Positions 20,111 to 34,728 of a stretch of DNA of 64,000 nt are shown here, piece by piece. The notes under the pieces were generated by a model. It was not told where the DNA came from. It saw only the letters and a program-made list of their open reading frames with translations, and made no database searches. Both the position numbers and the translations under genes were made by a program. The stretch comes from Candidatus Cloacimonetes bacterium HGW-Cloacimonetes-3 (GTDB taxonomy: Bacteria; Cloacimonadota; Cloacimonadia; Cloacimonadales; Cloacimonadaceae): assembly GCA_002840645.1 (NCBI GenBank), contig PHBO01000011.1, forward strand, positions 62,001-126,000, written 5' to 3'. Each line of letters starts with the position of its first letter. Within the stretch, counting starts at the first letter, position 1.

Positions 20111-20154
20111 CCGGGAGCGGGATGTGTATCCTGCTCCCGGTTTTGTTTATTTTT
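20111..20154 (+). terminator. Intrinsic terminator after the lipoprotein gene
   Basis: CCGGGAGCGGGAT (20111-20123) pairs with ATCCTGCTCCCGG (20128-20140) with one mismatch and a 4-nt loop. TTTTGTTTATTTTT follows. It lies 17 nt after the stop. Confidence 0.9.
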
Positions 20155-20420: not shown

Positions 20421-20460
20421 TGGCGCATTTTTTGCATTAAAACACCTTTACCGATATAAT
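20421..20460 (+). promoter_or_regulatory. Overlapping sigma54-like and sigma70-like promoters of the PqqD/ATP-grasp operon
   Basis: TGGCGCATTTTTTGCA (20421-20436) matches the -24/-12 pattern: GG and GC are 10 nt apart and TTGCA is perfect. TTGCAT (20432-20437) with TATAAT (20455-20460) and a 17-nt spacer is a good sigma70 promoter using part of the same bases. Predicted starts are near 20447 and 20467. A TTAGA-N4-TCTAA palindrome (20464-20477) covers the second start. A sigma54-type activator is encoded at 41614-43863, though whether it acts here is unknown. Confidence 0.6.
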
Positions 20461-20466
20461 ATGTTA

Positions 20467-20651
20467 GAACGATCTAAGCCCCTTGCCGGTGTGTGCCAAC
20501 ATAGAATTCCCGGAGCTTTAACAATTGCTATATGATGGCTTTAGTTTATGCTTTGAACATGGGATACCAGCGGCAAGGTAAAAATATTATGCGGTATATG
20601 GGATAGAAGCTTGTATAACTAATGCCTTCGGTTTTACCGAAGCGATATTTT
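20467..20651 (+). ncRNA. Structured leader RNA (candidate riboswitch/attenuator or small RNA), unassigned
   Basis: About 185 nt lie between the sigma70-like start and an intrinsic terminator, with no plausible coding frame. A long-range stem pairs CCTTGCCGGTG (20481-20491) with CAGCGGCAAGG (20568-20578), 10 of 11 bases. About 75 nt of internal sequence include AGCTTTAACAATTGC. The terminator stem and T-run follow, then the ribosome binding site of the first gene only about 5 nt later. This is the layout of a transcription-attenuating leader. The length also fits a 6S-like RNA. I do not recognise a known riboswitch class. Confidence 0.5.
20622..20651 (+). terminator. Terminator/attenuator immediately before the PqqD-like gene
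   Basis: CTTCGGT and ACCGAAG (20626-20642) form a 7-bp stem with a 3-nt loop, followed by CGATATTTTT. It lies 15-45 nt before the ATG at 20667, so it would stop transcription before the operon unless overridden. Confidence 0.65.
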
Positions 20652-20666
20652 TAGAAAGAGGTAGAT

Positions 20667-20915
20667 ATGAACACGGATCAGTTGATGACCCTTGCCGTGA
20701 ACAAGAACGGCTTTATCTTTGATCCCGAAAATGGGATTAGTTACACCGTGAATGACACGGGGTTGTTCATTTTGCGGCATCTGCAAAAAGGGGTGGAGCA
20801 GGAAGAACTGCTAAACCTGCTGACGGAAGAGTATGAAGTTAGCAAGGAGCACGTAAGAAGCGACATGGAACACTATATGGCGATGCTGAAAGCACTGCAT
20901 CTGGTGGAAGACTGA
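20667..20915 (+). CDS. PqqD-family protein (RRE/peptide chaperone-like)
   Basis: 82 residues, normal for PqqD. It shows the family pattern GFIFDPENGISYTVNDTGLFIL followed by a helical region with the acidic LLTEEYEVSKEHVRSDMEHYMAML. PqqD proteins bind peptide substrates and deliver them to a modifying enzyme (for example PqqA to PqqE). Here there is no radical SAM gene; the next gene, overlapping by one base (TGATG), is an ATP-grasp enzyme. Carrying or presenting a peptide or amino-acid substrate to that ligase is therefore an inference. A GAAAGAGG ribosome binding site precedes it. It is the first gene of a seven-gene operon. Confidence 0.8.
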   Translation: MNTDQLMTLAVNKNGFIFDPENGISYTVNDTGLFILRHLQKGVEQEELLNLLTEEYEVSKEHVRSDMEHYMAMLKALHLVED

Positions 20916-21988
20916 TGCCAAATCTCAGCCATCTGAACATCACAGTAGCCGTATCGGGCTTAAAAACCGGAGACAACCCCCAGCCCGGTGTTCCCGTAAT
21001 CCGCAGTATCCGCGCCGCCGGCTTCACAGGCAAGATTATTGGGCTGGTTTATGACTCCATGGAATCCGGTATCTATCTGGAAGGCATTGCCGACGAAGTT
21101 TATCAGATGCCATACCCCTCCACAGGTGCAGATTCTTTTTTAGCACGCCTGGATTACATCCTCAGCAACAGCAAGATTGACGTTATCATCCCTACGCTGG
21201 ATTCCGAGATCCCTATTTACATCCGGTTGGAGAAGGAGTTACAGAAACGTGGTATTCATACTTTCCTGCCCACCGAAGAACAGTTTAACCTGCGCGATAA
21301 GATAAAGTTATCCCAATTCTTCCCGCCCAAAGGTATAGATATCCCCAAAACTCACCTGCTGAATTCTGCCGATCAGATTGTGAAGCTACAGAATGAAGTT
21401 AGCTTCCCGGTGATAATCAAAGGCAGGCTGTACGAGGCTTACAAAGCTAATAATGTGTTTGAAGCGCAGAAGTATTTCTACGAGCTACAGGCAAAATGGG
21501 GCTTGCCAATCATTATGCAGGAGATTATCGACGGTGACGAGTTCAATGTGGTGATAGTGGGCGATGGAAAAGGCGGCTGTCTGGGCATGGTGCCACAGCG
21601 CAAACTGGTGATAACCGATAAGGGCAAAGGCTTTGGCGGCGTGGTGGTGAAGAACCCCGGTCTGCAAAGCTATGCCTACAAGGTTATCGAAGCTCTCTCC
21701 TGGCGTGGACCCTGCGAGCTGGAGATAATGAAAGATGAAGAAGGCGTGTTTTACCTGATAGAGATAAACCCCCGTTTCCCCGCCTGGGTACGCCTGGCAG
21801 AAGGCAGTGGGCAAAACCAGCCTGCGGCAACCGTGCTATTGGCAATGGGAGAAGAACAAGTGCAGCTACCTCCCTTTAGACCGGGGACGCTGTTTATCCG
21901 CCATGCGGAAGACATTATCAGCGATATCAGCCTGCTGGGCGAAATCTCCGTGAATGGAGAACTAATCAGAACAAAGGTGGAGAAATGA
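20915..21988 (+). CDS. ATP-grasp ligase, carbamoyl-phosphate-synthase/biotin-carboxylase-like
   Basis: 357 residues. The N-terminal Rossmann-like pre-ATP-grasp domain (ITVAVSGLKTGDNPQPGVPVIRSIR) carries DVIIPTLDSE. The ATP-grasp fold follows with FPVIIKGRLYEA (nucleotide-binding Lys, about 165), GLPIIMQEIIDGDEFNVVIV, and the metal-binding CELEIMKDEEGVFYLIEINPRFPAWVRLAEGSG (E and N near 285-287). Such enzymes join a carboxylate to an amine or thiol through an acyl phosphate. It overlaps the PqqD-like gene by 1 nt and the decarboxylase gene by 4 nt. The substrates are unknown; an amino acid or peptide is likely from the neighbours. Confidence 0.85.
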   Translation: MPNLSHLNITVAVSGLKTGDNPQPGVPVIRSIRAAGFTGKIIGLVYDSMESGIYLEGIADEVYQMPYPSTGADSFLARLDYILSNSKIDVIIPTLDSEIPIYIRLEKELQKRGIHTFLPTEEQFNLRDKIKLSQFFPPKGIDIPKTHLLNSADQIVKLQNEVSFPVIIKGRLYEAYKANNVFEAQKYFYELQAKWGLPIIMQEIIDGDEFNVVIVGDGKGGCLGMVPQRKLVITDKGKGFGGVVVKNPGLQSYAYKVIEALSWRGPCELEIMKDEEGVFYLIEINPRFPAWVRLAEGSGQNQPAATVLLAMGEEQVQLPPFRPGTLFIRHAEDIISDISLLGEISVNGELIRTKVEK

Positions 21989-23334
21989 AGAAGAATTACA
22001 CAGCCCCATACATAGAACGCAACAGTGCCGGAAACCTGAATAAATATGCTCATACCACCGTGGTACGGCATCAGGATAGTATAGATAACGTACTGATTAA
22101 GGATTTGATAGCCGAGCACGGCAGCCCTTTGTTTGTATTCTCTGAGAAGCAGATACGCAGAGCATATCGCCGTTTGCAGGATACCATCCGTATCCACTAT
22201 CCTTTAGCCGATATCACCTGGAGCTACAAAACTAACTACCTATCCGCCATTTGCAATATCTTCCATCAGGAAGGTGCCCCCGCGGAGGTAGTATCAGGCA
22301 TGGAATACGAACTGGCAAGGCATAACGGCATCCCCGGCGACAACATATATTTCAACGGACCCAGCAAGCGCAGAAGTGACCTAAGCAGAGCCATCAGCGA
22401 AGGTGCGTTCATCCATATAGACCATTTGGAAGAGCTGTACATGATCGAGAAACTTGCTGATGAACTTGGCATTACTCCCAGAGTGGCAATCCGCATGAAT
22501 ATGGATACGGGCATCAGCCCTCTGTGGACACGCTTCGGCTTTAATTACGAGAATGGCGAAGCCTATCGTACGGTGCAACGTCTGGTTTCCGGCGGTAAGA
22601 TGAAGCTAACCGGTTTGCACACCCATATCGGTACTTTTATTCTGGATCCCAATGCCTATTATTGGGCTGCCCAAAAGATGCTCGTCTTTGCCCAAACCAT
22701 CAAGGATAGCTTTAATATTGTAGTAGATTATATCGATCTTGGCGGCGGTTTTGCCTCCCAGAACACCCTGATAGATCAGTACACTCCCGGCGAGCTTTCC
22801 TCTCCATCGTTTGAGCAATATGCCGAAGCGATTGGCACCGCATTTAATGCCTCCACCTTTGTAAAAGAGCATCATCCGCGCTTGATTCTGGAAACCGGCA
22901 GGGTGCTTATCGACGAAGCAGGATATTTGATTGCCAGCGTGCTTGGCAAAAAGAACTTGCCCACCGGCGAACGTGCCGTTATCCTGGATGCAGGCGTGAA
23001 CGTGAATATCACAGCCTGGTGGTATAAACAGCGGGTGGTGCCTACCAAACCTTTCCCCGGCAGCTACCAGAATACAGTGTTCTACGGTCCCCTGTGCATG
23101 AATATAGATGTTATCCGCTCTGCCATGCCCTTCCCTGATCTATATTACGGTGATACAGTGCTTATTTCACCTGTGGGAGCTTACAACGTTACCCAATGGA
23201 TGCAGTTTATAGAATACCGTCCCAATGTGTGTCTTATCTCGGAAACCGGTAAAGTGGATATCATCCGCGAGAAAGAAGATATGAGCGACATGATCGCCAG
23301 AGAGTTTATCCCGGAGCACCTGAGACGGGTATAA
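21985..23334 (+). CDS. PLP-dependent decarboxylase, LysA/ornithine-arginine decarboxylase fold III family
   Basis: 449 residues. A TIM-barrel/beta-sandwich decarboxylase of the group that includes diaminopimelate and carboxynorspermidine decarboxylases. The PLP lysine is K82 in WSYKTNY. HTHIGTFI and DLGGGFA (phosphate-binding glycines) are present, as are ETGRVLIDEAGYLI and a conserved Cys in FYGPLCMNIDVI near residue 371. It differs clearly from ordinary LysA (the usual CESxD reads CMNID), so its substrate may not be diaminopimelate. It overlaps the ATP-grasp gene by 4 nt. An amine product for ligation, or decarboxylation of a ligated product, is inference. Confidence 0.85.
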   Translation: MKKNYTAPYIERNSAGNLNKYAHTTVVRHQDSIDNVLIKDLIAEHGSPLFVFSEKQIRRAYRRLQDTIRIHYPLADITWSYKTNYLSAICNIFHQEGAPAEVVSGMEYELARHNGIPGDNIYFNGPSKRRSDLSRAISEGAFIHIDHLEELYMIEKLADELGITPRVAIRMNMDTGISPLWTRFGFNYENGEAYRTVQRLVSGGKMKLTGLHTHIGTFILDPNAYYWAAQKMLVFAQTIKDSFNIVVDYIDLGGGFASQNTLIDQYTPGELSSPSFEQYAEAIGTAFNASTFVKEHHPRLILETGRVLIDEAGYLIASVLGKKNLPTGERAVILDAGVNVNITAWWYKQRVVPTKPFPGSYQNTVFYGPLCMNIDVIRSAMPFPDLYYGDTVLISPVGAYNVTQWMQFIEYRPNVCLISETGKVDIIREKEDMSDMIAREFIPEHLRRV

Positions 23335-23339
23335 AGTAA

Positions 23340-25541
23340 ATGAAGCTGTTTGACCGCATGATGCCCCTATTCCGGGCAGTTGGAGGCGTGGTACTTGCCA
23401 TTCCGCACAGTTATGCTTCCATCTTGTTCTCGGATTCCATATTGCTTGGCTTGATGCTTTTACTGGTAACCCTGCTGTCTCCAATAGTGGGGCTGTCGGG
23501 ATTGGTATCCCTGGTAGTGGCAATCTTAGTATCCCGCAGCATGGGCTTTGAAAGCTGGGAATCCAGAAGTGGTATAGCGGCATTCAATAGCCTGATAATA
23601 GGTATGGCGGTGGGTTATTACTACCCCATGCAGATGATCTCGAATGCGCCTGCCTTCTATTTCGGCTTTTTGGCGATGATATCCATTGTTACTCTGCTTC
23701 TCTATCTGCTGCTTAGCTACATCTCCAATACCTTCTTCCGCCTGCCTGCCATGAGCCTGCCTTTCTCTATTGTGGCACTGGTGTTGTGGTACTATTTCGC
23801 CAGGTTGGGCTTTCTTTCCAATTACCCTTTCGATAAGCTGCTGCTATTCTCCAATCCACCCGTATTGCCGGAGTTCTGGCGCTTGTTCTTTGTAAGCCTT
23901 GGCTCTATCTTCTTTACCCCGGAAGTAGTTGCGGGAATGTTGGTAGCAGTGGCGTTACTTATCATCACGCGCATCGGTTTTGTATTGGCTCTTTTGGGCT
24001 GGGCGATAAGCTTTTTCCTGATGCACTTGATGGGCGGAGTTGCCGGAAACGGAATGTTCTACCCGGGTTTCAATGGTATCCTGATCATGCTGGCAATAGG
24101 CGGGATATATCTGCTACCGGGCAAGACATCCTGGCTGGTAGCTGCTTTCTCTACTGCTATCGGGTTCACTTTTATCATGTTGATGAACATGACATATTAC
24201 CACTACAATAGCTTCACGGGATTGTACAGCCCCTTAGGCGTGCCGGTATTTGCCTTTCCGCTGAATATCGTGGTGCTGTTGGTGATCTTTACTTTGCGCT
24301 TGCGGATAGTGGTTACCAAGCCGGTAATGAACGACTTTGGCGTGTTTAATCCGGAACAAGCCCTGCAAACGTATCAGGAAAGGCACAAACGTTTCGGTAG
24401 CCTGGGTATTCCCCAGTTTGCCTTACCCTTGCAAGGAGAGTGGATTATTACGCAGGGGCACAGCGATGATATAACGCACAAGCTGGATTGGGCTTACGCC
24501 TGGGATTTTGAGATGCACGATAAGCAAAATCAGCCTTATGCTGCCGAGGAACATAGTGCCGCCGATTATTATGCTTTTGGCAAGCCGGTGTTTGCCTCCG
24601 CTGCCGGAACAGTGGTAAAAGTAATGGATGGCATCGTGGATAACCCTGTGGGACAGATAAACGCCCGTGAGAACTGGGGAAATTACATTTGCATCTCGCA
24701 TGGATACGGCTTATACAGCTTTTATGCCCACCTGAAACGTGGCAGTCTGCAAACCAAGCCAGGTGCTTATCTTAAGCAAGGTGATAAACTGGGCGCAGTT
24801 GGTAATTCCGGACGCTCTGCCGTTCCCCATCTGCATTTCCAGATACAGCTTGGTCCCGAGGCAGGTAGCCGCACAAGGTTGTCTCACTTGGTGAACTATA
24901 AACTGCATAAGGCAGATGGAACTGAGTTCATCGGCAGTGGCATCCCCAAAAAGGGTGAACTGCTATCTGCATTGGTGCCGGAAGAGCACTTGCAGAGTAT
25001 GCTTGGCATGCAAAATAAAACAGAACTGAACCTGCAAGTGGTGCGGGGAAACAAACGAAGCCAAGAAACATGGAAGGTGGAACTGGATTTCTGGGGTAGA
25101 TTTAAGCTGCTCAGTAGTAAGCGCAGTGAACTGGAATTCAGCGTTTATGGTGGCATCTACAATGCCTTGTCCCTCAAGGGAAACCGCAACAGCGCACTGG
25201 CTGCCTTTGCACTGCTGGTTTCGCGTCTGCCATATAGCGAGAAGCACGAAATCAGCAGCAGTGACGAGCCCGCCCTTTCTGTTATCCTAAACCCGGCATT
25301 CCGACACCTGATTCTGCTGTTCACACCGCTGTTCCCGTTGCTGTATGCATGCACCAAATCCAGTGTGAAAAGTACACGTGAACAAGTTATTATCCACAGT
25401 GAAATAGCATACTATATTCTGGGAATCAGGTTCAGCGGTTTTAATGGAACTGTGAAGATAGATAAATACCAGGGAATAAATGAGCTATTGCTATACAAAG
25501 GTAAACGCCTGATTCTGGAAGCCAAAGGCGAAGAGGCGTAA
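23340..25541 (+). CDS. Urea-transporter-like membrane domain fused to M23 metallopeptidase
   Basis: 733 residues. Residues about 1-325 are strongly hydrophobic. They contain the two pseudo-symmetric halves of a urea-transporter fold (AAFNSLIIGMAVGYYY near 80, LPFSIVALVLWYY near 143; GFNGILIMLAIGGIY near 246, FAFPLNIVVLLV near 305). A peptidase M23/LytM-like domain follows at about 370-515. It has HKLDWAYAWDF (H380), GTVVKVMDGIVDN, YGLYSFYAHL and the HLHF zinc motif (about 497-500). A further soluble domain of about 200 residues ends the protein. M23 enzymes cut peptidoglycan crosslinks. It starts 6 nt after the decarboxylase stop. Confidence 0.85.
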   Translation: MKLFDRMMPLFRAVGGVVLAIPHSYASILFSDSILLGLMLLLVTLLSPIVGLSGLVSLVVAILVSRSMGFESWESRSGIAAFNSLIIGMAVGYYYPMQMISNAPAFYFGFLAMISIVTLLLYLLLSYISNTFFRLPAMSLPFSIVALVLWYYFARLGFLSNYPFDKLLLFSNPPVLPEFWRLFFVSLGSIFFTPEVVAGMLVAVALLIITRIGFVLALLGWAISFFLMHLMGGVAGNGMFYPGFNGILIMLAIGGIYLLPGKTSWLVAAFSTAIGFTFIMLMNMTYYHYNSFTGLYSPLGVPVFAFPLNIVVLLVIFTLRLRIVVTKPVMNDFGVFNPEQALQTYQERHKRFGSLGIPQFALPLQGEWIITQGHSDDITHKLDWAYAWDFEMHDKQNQPYAAEEHSAADYYAFGKPVFASAAGTVVKVMDGIVDNPVGQINARENWGNYICISHGYGLYSFYAHLKRGSLQTKPGAYLKQGDKLGAVGNSGRSAVPHLHFQIQLGPEAGSRTRLSHLVNYKLHKADGTEFIGSGIPKKGELLSALVPEEHLQSMLGMQNKTELNLQVVRGNKRSQETWKVELDFWGRFKLLSSKRSELEFSVYGGIYNALSLKGNRNSALAAFALLVSRLPYSEKHEISSSDEPALSVILNPAFRHLILLFTPLFPLLYACTKSSVKSTREQVIIHSEIAYYILGIRFSGFNGTVKIDKYQGINELLLYKGKRLILEAKGEEA

Positions 25542-25572
25542 GCCCCATTTGCATACAAAGAGGAGATAAACA

Positions 25573-26175
25573 ATGAAAAGCAAGTTTTTAGTCCTGATTA
25601 TATGCCTTATTGCCGGCGTATTGCTGGCGCAAGGTAAATCCACGATTACAGATTCCTATAACGCAGAAACTGCCAAGAATTATACCCGTGCTCTGGAGAT
25701 TGTGCAGGAGATTGCCAAAGCAGATGCTAATGATGAATTCTACCAGCTTCGCATCGGTTGGCTGCAATATCTGTTGGGGCGTTATGACGAGGCAATAAAA
25801 AGCTATGGCAAATCAAACACCATAAGCCACAGTCTGGATGCCCAAACCGGGATTGTTAACTGTCAGCTTGCCCTGGGTAAATGGGACGAGGCACGGGCTT
25901 TGTCCGACCAGATATTAAAGAGCTACCCCCAAAGCACCACGATCCTTGCAAAGGCTGCTTATGCAGCTTATATGAGGCAAGATTATGCCGGTGCTGCGGG
26001 CTATTATGCGCAAATTATCAAAATCAGCCCCTGGGATATGGAGATTCGCGGCTATCTGGTAAATAACCTCTATCTTTCCAAAGATGTGGAAAATGCCCGC
26101 AAGCACTATCAGAAGCTGAAGAAGTACTACCCCGATTCACCTATAGTTAAGGAATACGCCAAAACCCTCGGCTAA
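25573..26175 (+). CDS. Secreted TPR protein
   Basis: 200 residues. A signal peptide (MKSKFLVLIICLIAGVLLAQG) precedes about four tetratricopeptide repeats (YTRALEIVQEIAKADANDEF, YDEAIKSYGKSNTISHSLDA, KWDEARALSDQILKSYPQS, DYAGAAGYYAQIIKISPWDM). A strong AGAGGAG site lies upstream. It is a periplasmic protein-interaction scaffold in the operon, between the UT-M23 fusion and a TPR-barrel protein. No enzymatic motif is present. Confidence 0.85.
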   Translation: MKSKFLVLIICLIAGVLLAQGKSTITDSYNAETAKNYTRALEIVQEIAKADANDEFYQLRIGWLQYLLGRYDEAIKSYGKSNTISHSLDAQTGIVNCQLALGKWDEARALSDQILKSYPQSTTILAKAAYAAYMRQDYAGAAGYYAQIIKISPWDMEIRGYLVNNLYLSKDVENARKHYQKLKKYYPDSPIVKEYAKTLG

Positions 26176-26178
26176 GGC

Positions 26179-27420
26179 ATGCGTTTACTGGTATTTATGG
26201 CAGTTCTGCTGCCGGTGATTCTGTTTGCTCAAAGTGCTCCGCCACTGCCACAATCGGCTGCCGGAGGTGGTGGAGCGGTACCCTCCAAGCCTGATTTGCT
26301 GAACCTTGCTTACGAGAACATGATGGCTGGGAATTATGCCAAAGCTGAGGAGCAATACCGCAGCCTGAAGGAAGCGGAGCCGGAAAATCTATCTGCACAC
26401 GAGGGATATCTGTGGGCACTTAATGCGCAGAAGAAGTTTAGTGTTAGCCTGAAGGAATCGGGCAAACTGCTTAAGCAATACCCCGCTAATTCGCAATTCT
26501 ACAATTACCGTGCTTATCCACTTCTGGAAAAGAAGCGTTTGCCTGAAGCACGCTATTTTTATCTGAAAGCAGCCCAAAACCAAGCTGCCAATCCTATTGG
26601 AAATCAGATATCGCAAGAAGGGCTTGCCTATACTTACGATGCTCTGGGGGATTATCTGCGCTATGACAGGCACCTGCAAGCCAACGCTGCTCTTACTCAC
26701 ATCCCTGCACGGAAGCCAAAACCGGAGTTCAGCAGTACCGTAGCTTTCGCACTTCCCGGTAAGGACAAATCTTCCCTAAACTTCGCTCAGGGAGTGGGCT
26801 ACAAAACCTGGCACCTCAGTCTGGGCTATAATGATTTTAGCGTGAACCAAAAGCACTTCCGCTCCCTTACATCTGCTGCTGTAGTTAAGCAATTTATCCC
26901 CTTTGATCTAAAAGCCGGGGCGATACTGATGGATGGCATCGATGAGAGAGTTTACCCCGCCAAGCAAGCAGATATAAGGCTTACCCCGAAGTTATATGCA
27001 GGATCTCTGGTACTGCGACCCGCGGTGATGGCATCTTTCAGCAGTTACTCCCGCTTCGATGTACAGCAGATAAGCTTCCTGCCGGAGTTATTATGGCGGG
27101 ATCTAACTATCAGCTATGCTGCCCATTACAGCTACATGGATAACAAAACTGTAGATGCAGACAGCACTCGCTTTGCCCAGCAAGTACTGATAGCTAAGAG
27201 CATGCCCTGGAATACTACTCTGGGCTTACATTATGGCAGTGGCGACAATTGCTGGATGGTGGATAGCAGCGGCTCTGTAATGGATACATTTGAGCAGCAA
27301 AGCGCCTATTACGGCGTGTCTCTGCTTGTGCCTTTCCTGAACCGCTATTCTATCTATGCCTATCATAACGTACAGGACAACCGTCAATTGTGGTATGCGT
27401 CCTTAACGGTGAGGTATTGA
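26179..27420 (+). CDS. TPR protein with C-terminal outer-membrane beta-barrel (YaiO-like)
   Basis: 413 residues. A signal peptide (MRLLVFMAVLLPVILFAQS) and a Gly-rich linker precede TPR-like helices over about 35-165. Alternating amphipathic strands follow to the end and terminate in ...WYASLTVRY, an aromatic C-terminal residue as in BAM-inserted barrels. TPR-plus-barrel is also the plan of exopolysaccharide or polymer export porins such as PgaA, and of YaiO-type proteins. It starts 3 nt after the previous gene and its stop overlaps the next start by 1 nt. The outer-membrane location is a good inference; the exported or bound substrate is unknown. Confidence 0.75.
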   Translation: MRLLVFMAVLLPVILFAQSAPPLPQSAAGGGGAVPSKPDLLNLAYENMMAGNYAKAEEQYRSLKEAEPENLSAHEGYLWALNAQKKFSVSLKESGKLLKQYPANSQFYNYRAYPLLEKKRLPEARYFYLKAAQNQAANPIGNQISQEGLAYTYDALGDYLRYDRHLQANAALTHIPARKPKPEFSSTVAFALPGKDKSSLNFAQGVGYKTWHLSLGYNDFSVNQKHFRSLTSAAVVKQFIPFDLKAGAILMDGIDERVYPAKQADIRLTPKLYAGSLVLRPAVMASFSSYSRFDVQQISFLPELLWRDLTISYAAHYSYMDNKTVDADSTRFAQQVLIAKSMPWNTTLGLHYGSGDNCWMVDSSGSVMDTFEQQSAYYGVSLLVPFLNRYSIYAYHNVQDNRQLWYASLTVRY

Positions 27421-30161
27421 TGAAGGCTATATATATGTTGAGGCTTAGTACATGCATGCTGTTATGCCTGTTGTTGATAAGTGCCTGCAATAACAGAGAG
27501 GACATCCTGCTACCCCCGAACCTGTCTGCTGCGGAATATCTGGAAGGTAACAAGATAGAAAGCTATGCCAATTACTTAGTGAAATCCGCCAATGACGACA
27601 GCTATTTCTTGCTGGATAAACTGGCAATTGCCGATTCCCTGCTAAACTATGGCGATGTGATAGACTTTCGCAGAGTGCAGAGCCTAAGTGCAAGAGACAG
27701 CCTGGCTGTACAGGATAACGCCGTTGCCAGAAGTAAAACTTACCATCTCAGAATTAGCAGAAACGGACAGCAATTGAACCTGATTGGCAGAATCCCTTTA
27801 GGGCAGGTATATACAGAGCTAACTACCTGCGAGGCACCGTATATTGTAAACTTTGCCTACTACCTGCAAGCAACGGAAGTGCAGCTTACCTATTATGGTA
27901 GTAACCGCGCCTATTTCCCTCTTTTTTCCACAGGTGAATTTGGCGTGTATGATATTCCTGCCACGGAAAACGCAAGCATTACCTTTAACACAAACACTGC
28001 TGTGCATGCCATGCTGATCGGGACTAACGGCAAGCGGCTTGCCGTGAACTTCCCCGCGAGCTATACAGGCGCAGCCGGGCAGATTACGTTAAGCATGGGC
28101 GGAAGCTTAAGCCTTGCAGAGCAAAATACGCTGCAAGGCTTCTTTCCCGATGCAGCCATTAGCACATCTGTAATTAGTATGCAAACAGCCACATCGGTGG
28201 GGACGGCAATTGCTGAGCTATGGTACAAAGACGGTAGTAAAAGCTTTTTTAGCGAGCAATGGGTGTGCCTTGCTCCTCCAGTAGCATATTCGTGGCAATC
28301 TACTAATGATGACACACAAGCTAACAACTGGTGGCAGGACAGCACAGGATTGTACAGCTTTGTGGCAGGGAGCGGGAAGTACTTTCTGCTTAATCCTCTG
28401 GATGCCCAGAGTGATATAGAAATCCCCCTTGACGGCACTTACAATCAGGTATTCTTACAGCAGCTGTGGTTCGATCTGCAAGAGATTAACCTTCCCAATA
28501 CCGTGATGAAAGTTATCCCCAATCCCTATACCTTTGGCACCATAGCAAGCTATTTCAGCGGAAAGCCCTTCATAACTCACGCTGGGAGAAAGGACTTTAA
28601 TATCCAATTCTACGAAGCGGGTAACCCTATCAGGGAATTGCCCAACGATGCCTGGCTGGAATTTGGCTTCCGCGCATCACTACCTCTGGCAGGCACAGAA
28701 AGATTGTTCAGCTGTATTCGAGAAGCAGACGAAGACATCATAACCTACAAAACCCCCTCAGATACGTATGACGCACAACATTTCAGCAGAACAGGCTCAT
28801 ACATATACACGGGCATAAACAGCTCTGCAACATATATCTATGGTGGTTTTAGCGAAGACCAGAACGAGCAGATATTTCCCTATCTGAAAAGCAAGCAATA
28901 CATCCAAACTTCTAAAGCAACCGTAGGCTGGAGCAGCTCTGTAAAAAGTGATTATGAAGAACTAAGGGTAAAGCTCACACCAACCCTGCCTTCGCATCCC
29001 TGGCTGAACGGAGAACCCTTGCAGCTTACTGATAAACAGGCTGTGGCAGAGTGCTATTTCTACAATGCTAATGTGGTGCAAAGCACCTTGCCGGCGGGCT
29101 TTAACCTAAGTATTCCCTATAGCGGAACCGCAGATAAGCTGTTGTTATATAACAATCTCAGCTATCCGCGCCTGAAGCTGTACCACGAATCCACGGCATA
29201 CGAGGGTGATACTTTCCTGTTAACCGACGGCAGTTTAAGCATCTATCCCGAATACCCCGGAACATTGATCGGTGCTTCTGTCACCTATCCTAACCCAATG
29301 TCCCTGCGCACATACCCCACCATGACCTTTGTGCTGGATGAATTGCGGCTCTACACGTATGGAAATGCGGCTGCGGGAACGAGTGCCGTGTTTAGTATAA
29401 ACAAGACCGCAGCTCCGGCAGATCCCTTCAATATTCTCACCAGTCAATACACACTTAGCCAGACTTCTCCGGCATACACGGTTACCACAGCAGAGGAAGC
29501 TGATTATGACACTTTCCAGCCCATGCTGTTTTTCAAACGCAGCCGCAGCCGAAACCTTCTGTTCTACGAGCGAACCGGCACACCCTACCGCTTGTATTCT
29601 TATACTGAGAGCAGCAGCTACAGTCCCTGGAACTTCATGATAGATGGAGCTTACAACGGCATCTCCCTAAGCTATAATGGCACTTATGCTTCCTACTCGG
29701 AAGCTGCTGTCCACAGCAATGTTACCCACACAGTGAAAGGCTTTGGGCAGGATATTTACCTATCTCTTTATCAGGCGCAGTTCGTGCTGCCAAGCTATTT
29801 CATGGAGGGAGCGGTACCACAGAATACGGTATTGGAGCTAAAGAAGTTAAGCTCCCTGCCTGGCACAACAGATTTGCTGTCCGCCTATCAATTGCAATTT
29901 ACCCAGCCCAATGGAATGCCCATATACCCGGATTTCTATAATGTTATTGGCGCGCCGCAAGAGCCTTACATCTACCTACCCATCAGCGATGTAAGTGCCA
30001 TTTCCAGCGCAAGATTGTTTTACCGGAATCAGTTTGGTCAGATAACGGAACTAAACCGCGTGCAGAGCTTTGGTGATAATTATGCAGAAGAATACACAGT
30101 GTTTGGCAACTGTTTTATCTGCACTGTCCCCAATACGGGGATATTTTACATCACAAGGTAG
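27420..30161 (+). CDS. Large lipoprotein of unknown function, last gene of the operon
   Basis: 913 residues from ATG 27420, which overlaps the upstream stop (TGATG). An earlier in-frame start lies inside the upstream gene. The signal peptide ends in the lipobox LLISACNN. The rest is rich in Thr, Ser, Tyr and Asn with beta-type patterns and no motif I recognise, so probably a multi-domain surface or periplasmic beta protein. Close coupling with the TPR-barrel gene suggests the two act together at the outer membrane. It converges on a minus-strand Sel1 gene 22 nt away. Confidence 0.75.
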   Translation: MKAIYMLRLSTCMLLCLLLISACNNREDILLPPNLSAAEYLEGNKIESYANYLVKSANDDSYFLLDKLAIADSLLNYGDVIDFRRVQSLSARDSLAVQDNAVARSKTYHLRISRNGQQLNLIGRIPLGQVYTELTTCEAPYIVNFAYYLQATEVQLTYYGSNRAYFPLFSTGEFGVYDIPATENASITFNTNTAVHAMLIGTNGKRLAVNFPASYTGAAGQITLSMGGSLSLAEQNTLQGFFPDAAISTSVISMQTATSVGTAIAELWYKDGSKSFFSEQWVCLAPPVAYSWQSTNDDTQANNWWQDSTGLYSFVAGSGKYFLLNPLDAQSDIEIPLDGTYNQVFLQQLWFDLQEINLPNTVMKVIPNPYTFGTIASYFSGKPFITHAGRKDFNIQFYEAGNPIRELPNDAWLEFGFRASLPLAGTERLFSCIREADEDIITYKTPSDTYDAQHFSRTGSYIYTGINSSATYIYGGFSEDQNEQIFPYLKSKQYIQTSKATVGWSSSVKSDYEELRVKLTPTLPSHPWLNGEPLQLTDKQAVAECYFYNANVVQSTLPAGFNLSIPYSGTADKLLLYNNLSYPRLKLYHESTAYEGDTFLLTDGSLSIYPEYPGTLIGASVTYPNPMSLRTYPTMTFVLDELRLYTYGNAAAGTSAVFSINKTAAPADPFNILTSQYTLSQTSPAYTVTTAEEADYDTFQPMLFFKRSRSRNLLFYERTGTPYRLYSYTESSSYSPWNFMIDGAYNGISLSYNGTYASYSEAAVHSNVTHTVKGFGQDIYLSLYQAQFVLPSYFMEGAVPQNTVLELKKLSSLPGTTDLLSAYQLQFTQPNGMPIYPDFYNVIGAPQEPYIYLPISDVSAISSARLFYRNQFGQITELNRVQSFGDNYAEEYTVFGNCFICTVPNTGIFYITR

Positions 30162-31025: not shown

Positions 31026-31457
31026 TTAGCCGCTGCTTAGGCTTTCAAGCCGCTCCACAATCCTGGCATGTATATCATCTCTGCAAGCACGAAAAGAGCT
31101 AACTACCTCTTCCTCGGGGGCTTTGCCGTATAGAACGGGATCGGCTATGCTGATGTGCACCATCTTTACCGGTTTTGGGAAGATAGGGCAGTTACGCTTT
31201 GCATGGTCGCAAACACTTATCACCAAGTCCAGATCGTCCATGTACAAAAACTCCGTGATACCCTTGGATTTCAAGTAGCCTGTTTCTATCCCCAGTTCCT
31301 GTAATACCTGTATAGACCGGGGATGCACGTGAGAGGGATGTGTCCCCGCAGAAAACGCCTGCCAGGTATCCCCGAAATAGTGGTTTATCAAAGCTTCTGC
31401 CATAACGCTGCGGCAGGAATTGCCGGTGCAAAGAATCAGCACTTTCTTCTGTGTCAC
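31026..31457 (-). CDS. arsC: Arsenate reductase, thioredoxin-coupled low-molecular-weight phosphatase type
   Basis: 143 residues. It reduces arsenate to arsenite. The P-loop is C10-TGNSC-R16 (CTGNSCRS) and the redox pair is C83 and C90 in SVCDHAKRNCP, the spacing known from S. aureus pI258 ArsC (C10, C82, C89). DPVLYG carries the conserved catalytic Asp region. It is the last gene of the minus-strand operon led by an ArsR-type regulator, and the neighbouring thioredoxin-like genes could supply electrons. The family also contains tyrosine phosphatases, but the Cys triad argues for the reductase. Confidence 0.93.
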   Translation of the reverse strand: MTQKKVLILCTGNSCRSVMAEALINHYFGDTWQAFSAGTHPSHVHPRSIQVLQELGIETGYLKSKGITEFLYMDDLDLVISVCDHAKRNCPIFPKPVKMVHISIADPVLYGKAPEEEVVSSFRACRDDIHARIVERLESLSSG

Positions 31458-31459
31458 AT

Positions 31460-31855
31460 TTATTCCTTTTTCGCAGGTTTTCGCTTTATCCCCATATGCG
31501 TATCCAGCATCTTGATCATCTCATCTTTGGGGTAGAATCCTTCATGGCGGCTAAATTCCTTGCCGTCCTTATCCAGAAACACCTGGGTGGGGATAACACG
31601 CACTTTATACTTTGTGGACATAGCCTTGTTTTCCGGCTTCCAGACATCGTAGAAGATCACTTCTATCTTATCGCCATACACCGCTTCCACTTCCTTCATC
31701 ACAGGCTGCATCATCTTGCAGGGAATGCAGTTAACAGAGCCAAGCTCAATGAAGGTAACCAGTGGCTTGGGTGGTTTTACCTTGGCACTTAACTCTGTGC
31801 AGCAAAGAAAAAGCACTAAGCTAAGGAGGAGGATTGCATGCCATAATCTATTCAT
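31460..31855 (-). CDS. Secreted thioredoxin-fold protein of the ArsR operon
   Basis: 131 residues from ATG 31855, behind AAAGGAC; a start 14 codons upstream lies before the signal sequence and lacks a site. The signal peptide (MNRLWHAILLLSLVLFLCC) precedes a thioredoxin fold with the active site C43-IPC (VNCIPCKMMQPVM) and the cis-Pro VRVIPTQVFLDKDG. It is likely periplasmic and kept reduced by the CcdA-like membrane protein of the same operon. It starts 2 nt upstream of the DGC gene's end. Confidence 0.88.
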   Translation of the reverse strand: MNRLWHAILLLSLVLFLCCTELSAKVKPPKPLVTFIELGSVNCIPCKMMQPVMKEVEAVYGDKIEVIFYDVWKPENKAMSTKYKVRVIPTQVFLDKDGKEFSRHEGFYPKDEMIKMLDTHMGIKRKPAKKE

Positions 31856-31856
31856 T

Positions 31857-32276
31857 CTATAGTCCTTTGTCTGATACTTTTTGCACAAGTATATCAATTA
31901 GAGCGGGATCAAAGCTAAATGTGCCTTCTTTCTTGATGCCCAACTGCGTAATGATTACATGTTTATAGTTTGTTTTACCCTGCTTATCAAACATTTTCTT
32001 CAGGCAAGCTACTGCACAGCCATCGATCAGCAGGTCTTTGGGCGTATCGGGAGCAGTAACACTTCCACAGGCACAATCCCCCGCGCCTACGCAAACAGCG
32101 CAGCCCATCTTATACTTGCCTGCAAGGTGCAAAGCCTTGGTTAGCTCCAGAGTTATAATCCCTACATTGCTGGCTCCCGTGCATGCATAAACGCTTGCCG
32201 GAGCATCATTGGTAACGCAGCCGGTGTCACAGCTGATATTGCTGCTGCTGCCACAATCGCATTTACATTCAGCCAC
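31857..32276 (-). CDS. DGC-domain putative zinc-binding protein
   Basis: 139 residues, Cys-rich. The N-terminus starts with a metal-binding-looking CKCDCGSSSNISCDTGC. Other motifs are VYACTGASNVG, MGCAVCVGAGDCAC and LLIDGCAVACLKKMF, which gives the DGC family its name. The biochemical role is unknown; members are often found beside ArsR, permease and thioredoxin-like genes, as here. Metal or arsenite handling is plausible but unproven. Confidence 0.82.
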   Translation of the reverse strand: MAECKCDCGSSSNISCDTGCVTNDAPASVYACTGASNVGIITLELTKALHLAGKYKMGCAVCVGAGDCACGSVTAPDTPKDLLIDGCAVACLKKMFDKQGKTNYKHVIITQLGIKKEGTFSFDPALIDILVQKVSDKGL

Positions 32277-32279
32277 GGG

Positions 32280-32519
32280 TTACATTCCTTTATTGATGAA
32301 AGCTTTCACATCTGAGGGAGACAACAGCTTACCGCTGGAGACCACCTTCTCATCTATCACCAGTGCGGGGGTCGTCATCACGCCATAAGCCATGATGGCA
32401 GTTAGATCGGTAACCTTTTCCACGGTAGCGGCAACACCGCTTTCGGCGATTGCTTTGTTCACGTTTTCTTCCAGCTTCTTGCATTTGCTGCAGCCGCTGC
32501 CAAGTACTTTAATGATCAT
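32280..32519 (-). CDS. Small redox-active disulfide protein (thioredoxin_3/TM0996-MTH895 type)
   Basis: 79 residues. MIIKVLGSGCSKCKKLEENV carries the C10-SK-C13 active site, and VMTTPALVIDEKVV has the cis-Pro loop. It is cytoplasmic, without a signal peptide. It lies between the DGC and CcdA-like genes with gaps of 3 and 11 nt. It probably passes electrons from cytoplasmic thioredoxin to the membrane protein or to ArsC. Confidence 0.93.
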   Translation of the reverse strand: MIIKVLGSGCSKCKKLEENVNKAIAESGVAATVEKVTDLTAIMAYGVMTTPALVIDEKVVSSGKLLSPSDVKAFINKGM

Positions 32520-32530
32520 GATAAACTCCT

Positions 32531-33226
32531 TTATTTGAAGATAAGATATACTCCGGCAGCGATTACCAGCACTGCACAGAGACGTTTTAAGATTATTAAG
32601 CCGCGTGACCCTTCATTCCAGTTCAGCACTTTTTGCACCATGCCAAGCGAAGTTCCGGCAAATACTATCACCATGCAATGTCCCACTCCATACACCAGCA
32701 TAATGATAATCGCCATGGGCATATTGGTAGCTCCCAGGCTGAATGCCAGCGTCAAAACAGGTGCCATAAAGGCAAAAGCACAAGGTCCCAGTGCCAAACC
32801 GAACAACAAGCCTACGATGAATACCACCAAAGGCTTGGTGCCATCAGGCTTCAACTTTGAGATAAATGAGATGCTGCCGATAGGAATGATATCCAGCAGC
32901 AGGATCCCACCCAGACACAAAGCTATGCCAAAGATTAAGTTTGCATGGCTGCCCAGATCACCCAGCATCCTGCCTAAAAGAGCAGTGATAACCCCGATCA
33001 GGGCGATACTTAGCAATACTCCCACGGAAAACAGCAGGCTTAAGCGAAAGGTCTGTTTTATGCTTAGCGTTCGTTTCCCCATCAGCATTGCCACTACCAG
33101 GGGGATGCTGGAAAGATGGCAGGGGCTTAGCAGCACACTCGCAATACCCCACAAAAAGCTTGCCAGCGCAGCTATGGCAAGATTGCCGTAAAGGGCAGTG
33201 TACAGGGAGTTGAAGATGCCTTCCAT
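32531..33226 (-). CDS. CcdA/DsbD-type membrane electron-transfer protein
   Basis: 231 residues with six hydrophobic segments. It matches the cytochrome c biogenesis/DsbD transmembrane family: LLSPCHLSSIPLVVAML near residue 31-47 contains the first conserved Cys-Pro, and LALGPCAFAFMAPVL near 144-158 the second. These two Cys carry reducing power across the membrane to periplasmic thioredoxins such as the 31460 protein. It starts directly after the permease stop (0-nt gap). Confidence 0.9.
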   Translation of the reverse strand: MEGIFNSLYTALYGNLAIAALASFLWGIASVLLSPCHLSSIPLVVAMLMGKRTLSIKQTFRLSLLFSVGVLLSIALIGVITALLGRMLGDLGSHANLIFGIALCLGGILLLDIIPIGSISFISKLKPDGTKPLVVFIVGLLFGLALGPCAFAFMAPVLTLAFSLGATNMPMAIIIMLVYGVGHCMVIVFAGTSLGMVQKVLNWNEGSRGLIILKRLCAVLVIAAGVYLIFK

Positions 33227-34195
33227 TTACATTATCCAGTTGAACAAATAGCCAGTGAACACTATTCCCGATCCCACGATGGCGATGAAGATCATCAATA
33301 ATCTTGGTTTCAACACTCTGCGCAGCAGAATCATCTCCGGCAAGCTGAGGGCTGTTACCGCCATCATGAACGCCAGTGAGGTGCCCATTGCCACTCCGGC
33401 ACGGGTAAGCTCGCTAACCAAGGGAATCACACCTGCCGCATTGGCGTACAACGGAATCCCTACCAGCACCGCGACCAGCACCGCAAAGGGATTACCTTTG
33501 CCTGCCAGATGAGCTAATGCATTTGCCGGCACCCAACCATGCATGATGCCGCCAATTCCTATGCCGATAACCACATATATCCATATTTTCTTTAGCAGTT
33601 CCCAGGTGAAGCTCCAGGCATCCTGCAATCTTTCTTTTTGGGAAGGCGTTGCCATTTCCGTAGCGGCACCAACCTTCATTTGCCAAACCTTGTCTTCCAC
33701 ATAGCGTTCCAGCTTCAGTCTGCCGATGATCATCCCGCTAATGATGGCGATAAGCTCTCCGGAGATCACATAGATCAGGGCTATCTTCCAGCCGAATAAC
33801 ACATAAAGCAAGCCTAATGCCACTTCATTAACCATCGGTGCGGCAATTAGATAACTAAAGGTTACTCCCAGAGGGATGCCTGCTTCCACAAAACCAATGA
33901 ACAGCGGTACGGCGGAGCAGCTGCAAAAAGGAGTTACTATTCCCAACAGCGCTGCCATAATGTGCCCGACAAAGGTGCTGCCTTTCCGCTTTGCCAGAAT
34001 CGCCTTGGTGCGCTCCGGCGGGAAGTAGCTGCGGATGTAAGTTATTACTACAATAATGACCGATAGCAAGATGAATATCTTGATCGTATCAAACAAAAAG
34101 AATTGCAGAGCCGAAGCCCAGTGATTTGCCTCATCCATCCCAAACAGGCTATATACCATCCACTTTGTGATAGCATCCCACCATCCAAACATCAT
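33227..34195 (-). CDS. Permease of the DUF318/ArsP_1 family
   Basis: 322 residues with about eight membrane helices. The conserved core GIVTPFCSCSAVPLFIGFVEAGIPLG carries the CSC motif characteristic of ArsP_1/PF03773 proteins. GIPLYANAAGVIPLV is the second repeat. Members export organoarsenicals or other metalloid compounds, but many are uncharacterised. It lies 4 nt after the arsR-like gene, so it is its direct target. The exact substrate cannot be read from sequence. Confidence 0.9.
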   Translation of the reverse strand: MMFGWWDAITKWMVYSLFGMDEANHWASALQFFLFDTIKIFILLSVIIVVITYIRSYFPPERTKAILAKRKGSTFVGHIMAALLGIVTPFCSCSAVPLFIGFVEAGIPLGVTFSYLIAAPMVNEVALGLLYVLFGWKIALIYVISGELIAIISGMIIGRLKLERYVEDKVWQMKVGAATEMATPSQKERLQDAWSFTWELLKKIWIYVVIGIGIGGIMHGWVPANALAHLAGKGNPFAVLVAVLVGIPLYANAAGVIPLVSELTRAGVAMGTSLAFMMAVTALSLPEMILLRRVLKPRLLMIFIAIVGSGIVFTGYLFNWIM

Positions 34196-34199
34196 CGCC

Positions 34200-34478
34200 T
34201 CACTTCATCTTTCTCATACAGGAATAAAAGTCCAATACGCAAGGACACAGCAAGCTGTAAAACACTTGGTTATTATGCTTGCGGCTGGAGATAATCCCTG
34301 CTTGTTTTAGTACAGACAGGTGTTTGGATACAGTGGACATGTCTAATCCTATATGTGCCTGTAGTTCGCATACACATTGCTCTTTTTCCTTTAACATATC
34401 CAGAATGAACAAGCGGGTGGGGTTTGCCATCGCTTTCATTATCACAGTCATCTGTACGTATTTGCTATCATTTCTCAT
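34200..34478 (-). CDS. ArsR-family metalloregulator
   Basis: 92 residues from ATG 34478, which follows CGAGGAA at good spacing; the frame is open further but without a site. The winged helix is clear: AMANPTRLFILDMLKEKEQCVCEL with LDMSTVSKHLSVLKQAGII as recognition helix. Cysteines that may bind As(III) or another soft metal are C35 and C37 in the ELCVC-type alpha3 motif, and C78, C80 and C87 near the C-terminus (CPCVLDFYSC). It heads the operon ending in arsC and should repress it until metalloid binds. The divergent neighbour is nadC. Confidence 0.92.
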   Translation of the reverse strand: MRNDSKYVQMTVIMKAMANPTRLFILDMLKEKEQCVCELQAHIGLDMSTVSKHLSVLKQAGIISSRKHNNQVFYSLLCPCVLDFYSCMRKMK

Positions 34479-34728
34479 TGGTTCCTCGTTTATGTTTAAA
34501 CCGTATTTTGCCACTTTGCCAAATAGCCAAGATTGGTCAAGCTTTTTTTCTTGCTTCTTATCGACATCTGACACTAAGCCCACCATGATAAGACCTTTGA
34601 ATAATCGGAACGTTGAATTTATTCGGCTGGACAGCAAGATTTATCTGGTGAGAAGCATTCGCACATTTGTGCTTGACATATATGGCATTACGAAATAATC
34701 GGTTCTTTCCAAAGAGGATAGATTATAT

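Follow-up and report, generated by a model that had tools for sequence, protein, structure and literature searches.

The genes described here lie in a 64,000-nt stretch of DNA (the window) from a 2.68-Mb Cloacimonadota genome that is 97.5% complete. They encode a PqqD-like protein, an ATP-grasp ligase, an alanine-racemase-fold (AR-fold) pyridoxal phosphate (PLP) decarboxylase, a fusion of a urea transporter (UT) channel with an M23 metallopeptidase, a TPR protein, a TPR-barrel protein and a large lipoprotein. The gene order is conserved far beyond chance and is found in dozens of genomes. We tentatively propose that the block may be a dedicated pathway which makes and exports a putative small amine-bearing conjugate. 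A preliminary description of this DNA had reported seven tightly coupled plus-strand genes, and the list of open reading frames (ORFs) agrees: seven ORFs, all on the plus strand, occupy 20667-30161, and neighbours either overlap by 1 or 4 nt or lie 3 to 31 nt apart. The family assignments made at that time were reproduced by Pfam and NCBIfam searches of the window proteins. No gene begins at the start given then (20421), which lies at a promoter-like region; the first gene begins at 20667.

Conservation and distribution of the gene block

About 37 of 125 Cloacimonadota genomes encode a relative of the UT-M23 fusion that spans most of its length, a count that includes genes truncated at contig ends. 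All seven genes are present in the same order and strand in 22 of 33 fetched Cloacimonadota regions; the remaining regions are cut by contig ends or their last genes have diverged. When species genomes were searched with an alignment of the decarboxylase, at least 584 relatives were detected. Among the best 80 decarboxylase loci, many on short contigs, 76 carry the ATP-grasp gene, 72 the UT-M23 fusion, 67 the PqqD gene and 64 a TPR-protein homologue. Of 296 evenly sampled Bacteroidota genomes, 27 encode UT-M23, and the order PqqD, ATP-grasp, decarboxylase, UT-M23 was kept in 20/20 fetched loci. The core of PqqD, ATP-grasp, PLP decarboxylase, UT-M23 and TPR genes, mostly with an adjoining barrel-like gene, is found again across roughly a dozen phyla: Bacteroidota, Chlorobiota, Ignavibacteriota, Cloacimonadota, Aquificota, Thermodesulfobacteriota, Deferribacterota, Myxococcota, Nitrospirota, Pseudomonadota, Thermotogota, candidate WOR-3, Melainabacteria and Riflebacteria (phyla assigned from record titles; a few loci may be mis-binned). 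The branches of the tree follow the phyla, though with some mixing; the Cloacimonadota members make up a single clade. The preliminary description would have been undermined had the block not recurred as neighbours in other Cloacimonadota and Fibrobacterota-Chlorobiota-Bacteroidota (FCB) genomes. The block is kept there, and its recurrence in these and other phyla rules out a local or lineage-specific cluster. Plasmid-borne spread was dropped as an explanation: in that search the decarboxylase matched only haloarchaeal LysA and UT-M23 had no match.

The outer end of the block is more variable. The large lipoprotein is recognised in Cloacimonadota only (homologues at 26 loci), and it has no Pfam or NCBIfam family above cut-off. 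Beyond Cloacimonadota a different barrel-like gene adjoins the TPR gene; judged from the sequence ends, in Bacteroidota it encodes a relative of the TPR-barrel protein, in Aquificota and Ignavibacteriota a short protein with a signal peptide. A search across loci for conserved partners downstream of the operon yielded none. Some loci have insertions. In three Bacteroidota loci a secreted protein of about 260 aa, sorted by the type IX secretion system, is encoded between the ATP-grasp and decarboxylase genes (L089 1738-2517, L095 7700-8479 and L129 9200-9982), and its relatives adjoin the operon in three further loci. An IF-2B family gene, possibly a relative of sugar-phosphate or methylthioribose isomerases, is found between the decarboxylase and UT-M23 genes at L075 11358-12305, L077 7538-8368 and L111 11437-12270 (PF01008 confirmed in L075 and L077; sequence resemblance only in L111).

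Table 1. Features of the operon and its upstream flank (window coordinates)
Feature	Position	Strand	Evidence and remarks
Terminator-like hairpin of upstream lipoprotein gene	20111-20140	+	13 pairs then TTTTGTTTAT
Promoter-like TTTGCA-18-TATAAT before operon	20431-20460	+	Consensus match; such matches as a class are not commoner than in shuffled sequence
PqqD-like protein, 82 aa	20667-20915	+	PF05402 E 9e-14
ATP-grasp ligase, 357 aa	20915-21988	+	1-nt overlap with PqqD gene; PF15632 and PF02655 above cut-off
AR-fold PLP decarboxylase, 449 aa	21985-23334	+	4-nt overlap with ATP-grasp gene; PF02784/PF00278
UT channel-M23 metallopeptidase fusion with C-terminal beta domain, 733 aa	23340-25541	+	5-nt gap; PF03253 E 2e-40, PF01551 E 2e-18
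TPR protein, N-terminal signal-like segment	25573-26175	+	31-nt gap; TPR Pfam families
TPR-barrel protein, 413 aa	26179-27420	+	3-nt gap; AlphaFold2 (AF2) model
Large lipoprotein, 913 aa from ATG 27420	27420-30161	+	1-nt overlap; lipobox LLISAC

The hairpin is a strong terminator and forms the upstream limit of the unit. A search for a structured leader RNA gave no Rfam match. The ORF list starts the lipoprotein at GTG 27390, an in-frame start upstream of the ATG. Convergent with the operon, the minus strand carries an arsenic-resistance-like cluster (31026-34637) with ArsR-like, permease, CcdA/DsbD-like, ArsE-family thioredoxin (above cut-off), Cys-rich, thioredoxin and ArsC-like (below cut-off) genes. 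Homologues of three tested genes of this cluster (31026-32276) were not found at other Cloacimonadota loci.

Active sites of the cytoplasmic enzymes

Residues K82, GGG253-255, E303, R306 and C371 of the decarboxylase are each present in 89/89 sequences. Judged by sequence, the enzyme is a member of the AR-fold PLP decarboxylase superfamily, with the PLP lysine (K82), the glycine loop, the glutamate facing the pyridine nitrogen and the catalytic cysteine (C371). The nearest solved relative is N-citrylornithine decarboxylase (PDB 7kh2, E 3.7e-81), then diaminopimelate decarboxylase (DapDC) and BtrK. DapDC R343 binds the carboxylate of diaminopimelate (DAP), and ornithine decarboxylase (ODC), arginine decarboxylase (ADC) and DapDC have an acidic residue beside the catalytic Cys; FigC carries T327 and M355 in place of this Arg and acid, and contacts citrate through H357 and R387 (PMC7857480). 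FigC was grouped with SbnH, AcsE, MccE and BtrK, enzymes which act on amino-acid groups already conjugated (PMC7857480). Equivalent residues were located by alignment together with the numbering in that paper. In the operon family the DapDC Arg position is T343 (88/89) and the acid beside the catalytic Cys is M372 (89/89), the same replacements as in FigC. The citrate contacts are replaced as well, H357 by I374 and R387 by Q404 (both 89/89). W346 and Y347 lie in the specificity helix, and the motif TxxWY...GPLCMNID...YNxTQWMQF is near-invariant. Given these replacements, neither DAP nor a basic amino acid nor a citryl amide is likely to be the substrate, and since the citrate-docking residues of FigC are replaced, the distal group would differ from citrate and be neutral. 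The conservation pattern suggests a single substrate with a bulky and neutral distal part.

The decarboxylase scores 206.9 bits against the LysA model TIGR01048 (cut-off 297.9) and 224.5 bits against NF041039 for N-citrylornithine decarboxylase (cut-off 500), below the cut-off in both cases. The operon decarboxylases of seven other carrier genomes score 212 to 246 bits, also under the LysA cut-off, and six of the seven encode a separate true LysA (402 to 548 bits). In the genome of the window no gene scored above the LysA cut-off and one other family member was found. This second AR-fold decarboxylase (L146 1486-2874; G000 C24) has a CDSMD motif and adjoins a dehydrogenase-like gene. A role in ordinary lysine or polyamine metabolism, with the neighbours there by accident, could appeal to the LysA-type match and to the absence of any other gene above the LysA cut-off in this genome. 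It is hardly credible in view of the sub-threshold score, the true LysA of most carriers, the replaced DapDC specificity residues and the strict linkage to six other genes. Lysine biosynthesis, the known pathway that the preliminary description had named as a possible way out for the ligase and decarboxylase, was ruled out on the same grounds.

In the ATP-grasp ligase, E268, E270, E283, N285 and R287 are each conserved in 86/86 sequences; its nearest models are PRK12767-type proteins without firm function. The PqqD-like protein belongs to the Pfam family and reached no NCBIfam equivalog cut-off. Gly23 (78/78) and Asn29 (76/78) are conserved, and the protein is a probable docking or recognition module. 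Its C-terminus varies and has no conserved terminal residue, so a LysW-like covalent amino-acid carrier is disfavoured. No acyl carrier protein (ACP) gene was found within the block.

A PqqD protein also brings to mind a pathway for a ribosomally synthesized and post-translationally modified peptide (RiPP) with an unlinked precursor gene, in which PqqD would act as a recognition element, the ATP-grasp enzyme would form amide or ester links at side chains and the decarboxylase would modify the peptide, with M23 removing the leader and UT serving for export. The best NCBIfam similarity of the PqqD-like protein is to lasso-peptide PqqD (below cut-off), and a peptidase-transporter fusion would suit such a pathway. 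We consider it quite unlikely: no conserved small ORF was found in the 2 kb upstream across loci (an unlinked gene is possible), the spaces between the genes leave no room for one, a peptide would be a tight fit for a UT channel, and the alpha-amino acid group on which AR-fold decarboxylases act is a terminal one. All precursor candidates picked up near the operon proved to match real genes in antisense or out of frame.

The channel-peptidase fusion, outer-membrane parts and a possible metal link

The AF2 model of the UT-M23 fusion (pLDDT 91) matches the urea transporters UT-B and dvUT and LytM/M23 domains in fold searches, with a TM-score of up to 0.84 (by target) for the UT part. The zinc ligands and catalytic His of M23 (H380, D389, H464, H497 and H499) are each present in 85/85 sequences. 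With the filter positions of dvUT, which we take to be Q24 and E187, the Q24 site is Gln in 48/85 sequences, and the E187 site is Ala (55), Ser (16), Val (5), Leu (5) or Asn (2) among the 85, Glu not being among the residues counted. With the filter Glu absent, the family name should not be taken to mean that the channel transports urea. The urea-transporter and M23 families assigned to this fusion in the preliminary description are borne out.

Characterised UT proteins have both the N- and the C-terminus in the cytoplasm. The M23 domain of the fusion contains 1.63 cysteines per 100 aa (present in 21/21 Cloacimonadota sequences) vs 0.10 in ordinary M23 domains from this phylum (Cys in 2 of the 20 compared); the contrast comes largely from two conserved positions, and its rows are related. 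The UT topology and these cysteines argue that M23 probably lies on the cytoplasmic face. The count of Lys plus Arg in predicted UT loops (inside 7.9, outside 6.2) speaks weakly for the same side. At L157 (5944-8198) UT and M23 are in two overlapping frames that break at a run of seven T; this split was dropped as topology evidence because it may be a frameshift.

The TPR-barrel protein was modelled with a mean pLDDT of 90.1 as four TPR repeats (eight helices) followed by a 14-stranded barrel, in agreement with the outer-membrane barrel expected from the first description. Its best PDB matches are BcsC (9b8a) and then OmpG.

Upstream genes were surveyed at 79 loci with at least 1.5 kb of upstream sequence. 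Close upstream, 14/79 encode an AraC-type regulator whose N-terminal domain is CopZ/HMA-like, 8/79 a DUF2202 protein and 4/79 a DUF4405 protein; at least one of the three is present in 20/79. The regulator has one to four copies per genome (12 genomes). DUF2202 is single-copy in 9/9 genomes, and that copy adjoins the operon; no paper on DUF2202 was found in the open-access literature. Regulator paralogues adjoin copper P-type ATPases scoring above the TIGR01511 cut-off (L198, L201, L203) and, once, an SO_0444 Cu/Zn exporter (L199), while further paralogues are without the first cysteine and adjoin histidine kinases. In Aquificota the genes upstream of the operon include DUF2202 and a ZraS/ZraR-like two-component pair. 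By association, these neighbours point to copper-type metal control of the operon in those lineages; the operon loci were picked by similarity, and the rows are not independent. They could also be read as a metallophore cycle or as metal import or storage, where the conjugate is a ligand of copper or another metal and the channel and barrel serve uptake, not export. The CopZ-AraC regulator, ferritin-like DUF2202 and CusB-like neighbours would fit, but neither a TonB-dependent receptor nor an ABC importer is conserved with the block and the regulator paralogues adjoin efflux genes, which makes this very unlikely.

Proposed pathway and comparison with known systems

In the proposed pathway, the PqqD-like protein would present the ligase with an acceptor, be it a peptide or another molecule, as expected from the PqqD family. 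The ATP-grasp enzyme would couple an amino acid via its side chain to the acceptor and leave the alpha-amino and alpha-carboxyl groups free; the invariant residues indicate the ligase chemistry, and the side-chain link follows from what the next enzyme would need. The PLP enzyme, whose residues place it in its class, would then strip the alpha-carboxylate off the presumed conjugate, as FigC, BtrK and MccE do. M23, placed on the cytoplasmic side of the channel, may trim the conjugate and hand the product to UT, in the manner of the peptidase domains of ABC exporters; its catalytic residues and the UT fold are clear, and the side and coupling are our conjecture. The TPR protein and the outer-membrane barrel, assigned a role from their folds, may carry the product onward or out. 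In Bacteroidota the CopZ-AraC regulator beside the operon would associate the product with the handling of copper or another thiophilic metal. This is the most economical reading, the first three steps drawing on enzyme residues and precedent and the last two on domain architecture. A more specific version, a widespread, metal-responsive small-molecule pathway in which an acceptor-joined amino acid is decarboxylated, freed by a cytoplasmic M23 and exported via the fused UT channel, we regard as rather doubtful.

Several observations weigh against the export pathway. The UT pore normally passes urea-sized solutes. Neither a precursor-peptide gene nor a carrier gene was found conserved beside the operon, and the C-terminus of PqqD is variable. 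The CopZ-AraC regulator occurs in Bacteroidota-type loci only and in none of the Cloacimonadota loci. The origin of the cysteine contrast and the small charge difference also count here. The strongest counter-hint comes from two Cloacimonadota loci, where a membrane-bound O-acyltransferase (MBOAT; PF03062 above cut-off) and a 315-aa SGNH/DUF1574-like protein are encoded within the operon, between UT-M23 and TPR (L056 6229-8577, minus strand, and L071 7399-9746). These genes would suit envelope modification: the amine-bearing group made by the trio would be attached to peptidoglycan or an outer-membrane polymer, with UT inverted, a periplasmic M23 opening or editing peptidoglycan, and the TPR and barrel proteins building or exporting the decorated material. 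The complete M23 catalytic set and the resemblance of the TPR-barrel protein to BcsC agree with this, and the UT halves are inverted repeats, which makes the orientation easy to doubt. Such decoration is nevertheless unlikely, as the N- and C-termini of known UT proteins are both cytoplasmic, the M23 cysteines differ from those of ordinary M23 domains of the phylum, no signal peptide precedes M23 and no polymer synthase or glycosyltransferase is conserved in the block. The preliminary description had suggested that the trio makes or modifies an amino-acid or peptide conjugate for export or cell-wall attachment. With the active-site residues intact the first part is the best fit to the data; cell-wall attachment is unsupported, M23 probably facing the cytoplasm.

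If the metal-responsive version is correct, its exporter, a peptidase joined to a channel, would be of a kind not described before, and the amine conjugates that it exports would form a new class. The open-access literature yielded no paper on the PqqD/ATP-grasp/decarboxylase/UT-M23 gene set, in line with the earlier statement that no described pathway with this set was known. The novelty, within the open-access papers checked, is that of the system as a whole; each enzyme is from a known superfamily. That the five core genes keep their active sites unchanged across around a dozen phyla implies that many bacteria make an unnamed product. Cultured carriers include Rhodonellum psychrophilum and Thermodesulfatator autotrophicus.

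The operon resembles several known systems in part. FigC/FslC of rhizoferrin synthesis provides the best solved relative and shares the Thr and Met at the DapDC/ODC specificity sites, but the operon enzyme falls under the family cut-off, the citrate-docking His and Arg are replaced and the block has no NRPS-independent siderophore (NIS) synthetase. LysA has the fold and PLP residues of the operon enzyme, which differs in its specificity residues and scores below cut-off, true LysA being encoded elsewhere in most tested carriers. The butirosin proteins BtrI, BtrJ and BtrK (ACP, ATP-grasp ligase and Glu-ACP decarboxylase; we take BtrJ to be the ATP-grasp ligase of that pathway) likewise pair an ATP-grasp enzyme with an AR-fold PLP decarboxylase, and BtrK ranks among the closest relatives with a solved structure. 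The block has PqqD in place of the ACP, and its UT-M23 and outer-membrane parts have no butirosin counterpart. The urea transporters dvUT and UT-B share the UT fold (PF03253 above cut-off), whereas the operon UT lacks the filter Glu and carries C-terminal M23 and beta domains. The export porins BcsC and PgaA also have TPR repeats followed by a barrel, and BcsC is the best PDB match; the operon protein is short (413 aa) with 14 strands, and no cellulose, poly-N-acetylglucosamine (PNAG) or other polysaccharide synthase was found in the block. In peptide-exporting ABC transporters a C39 peptidase domain is fused to the transporter. The peptidase-exporter fusion is alike and the folds differ throughout, so that the comparison is one of analogy.

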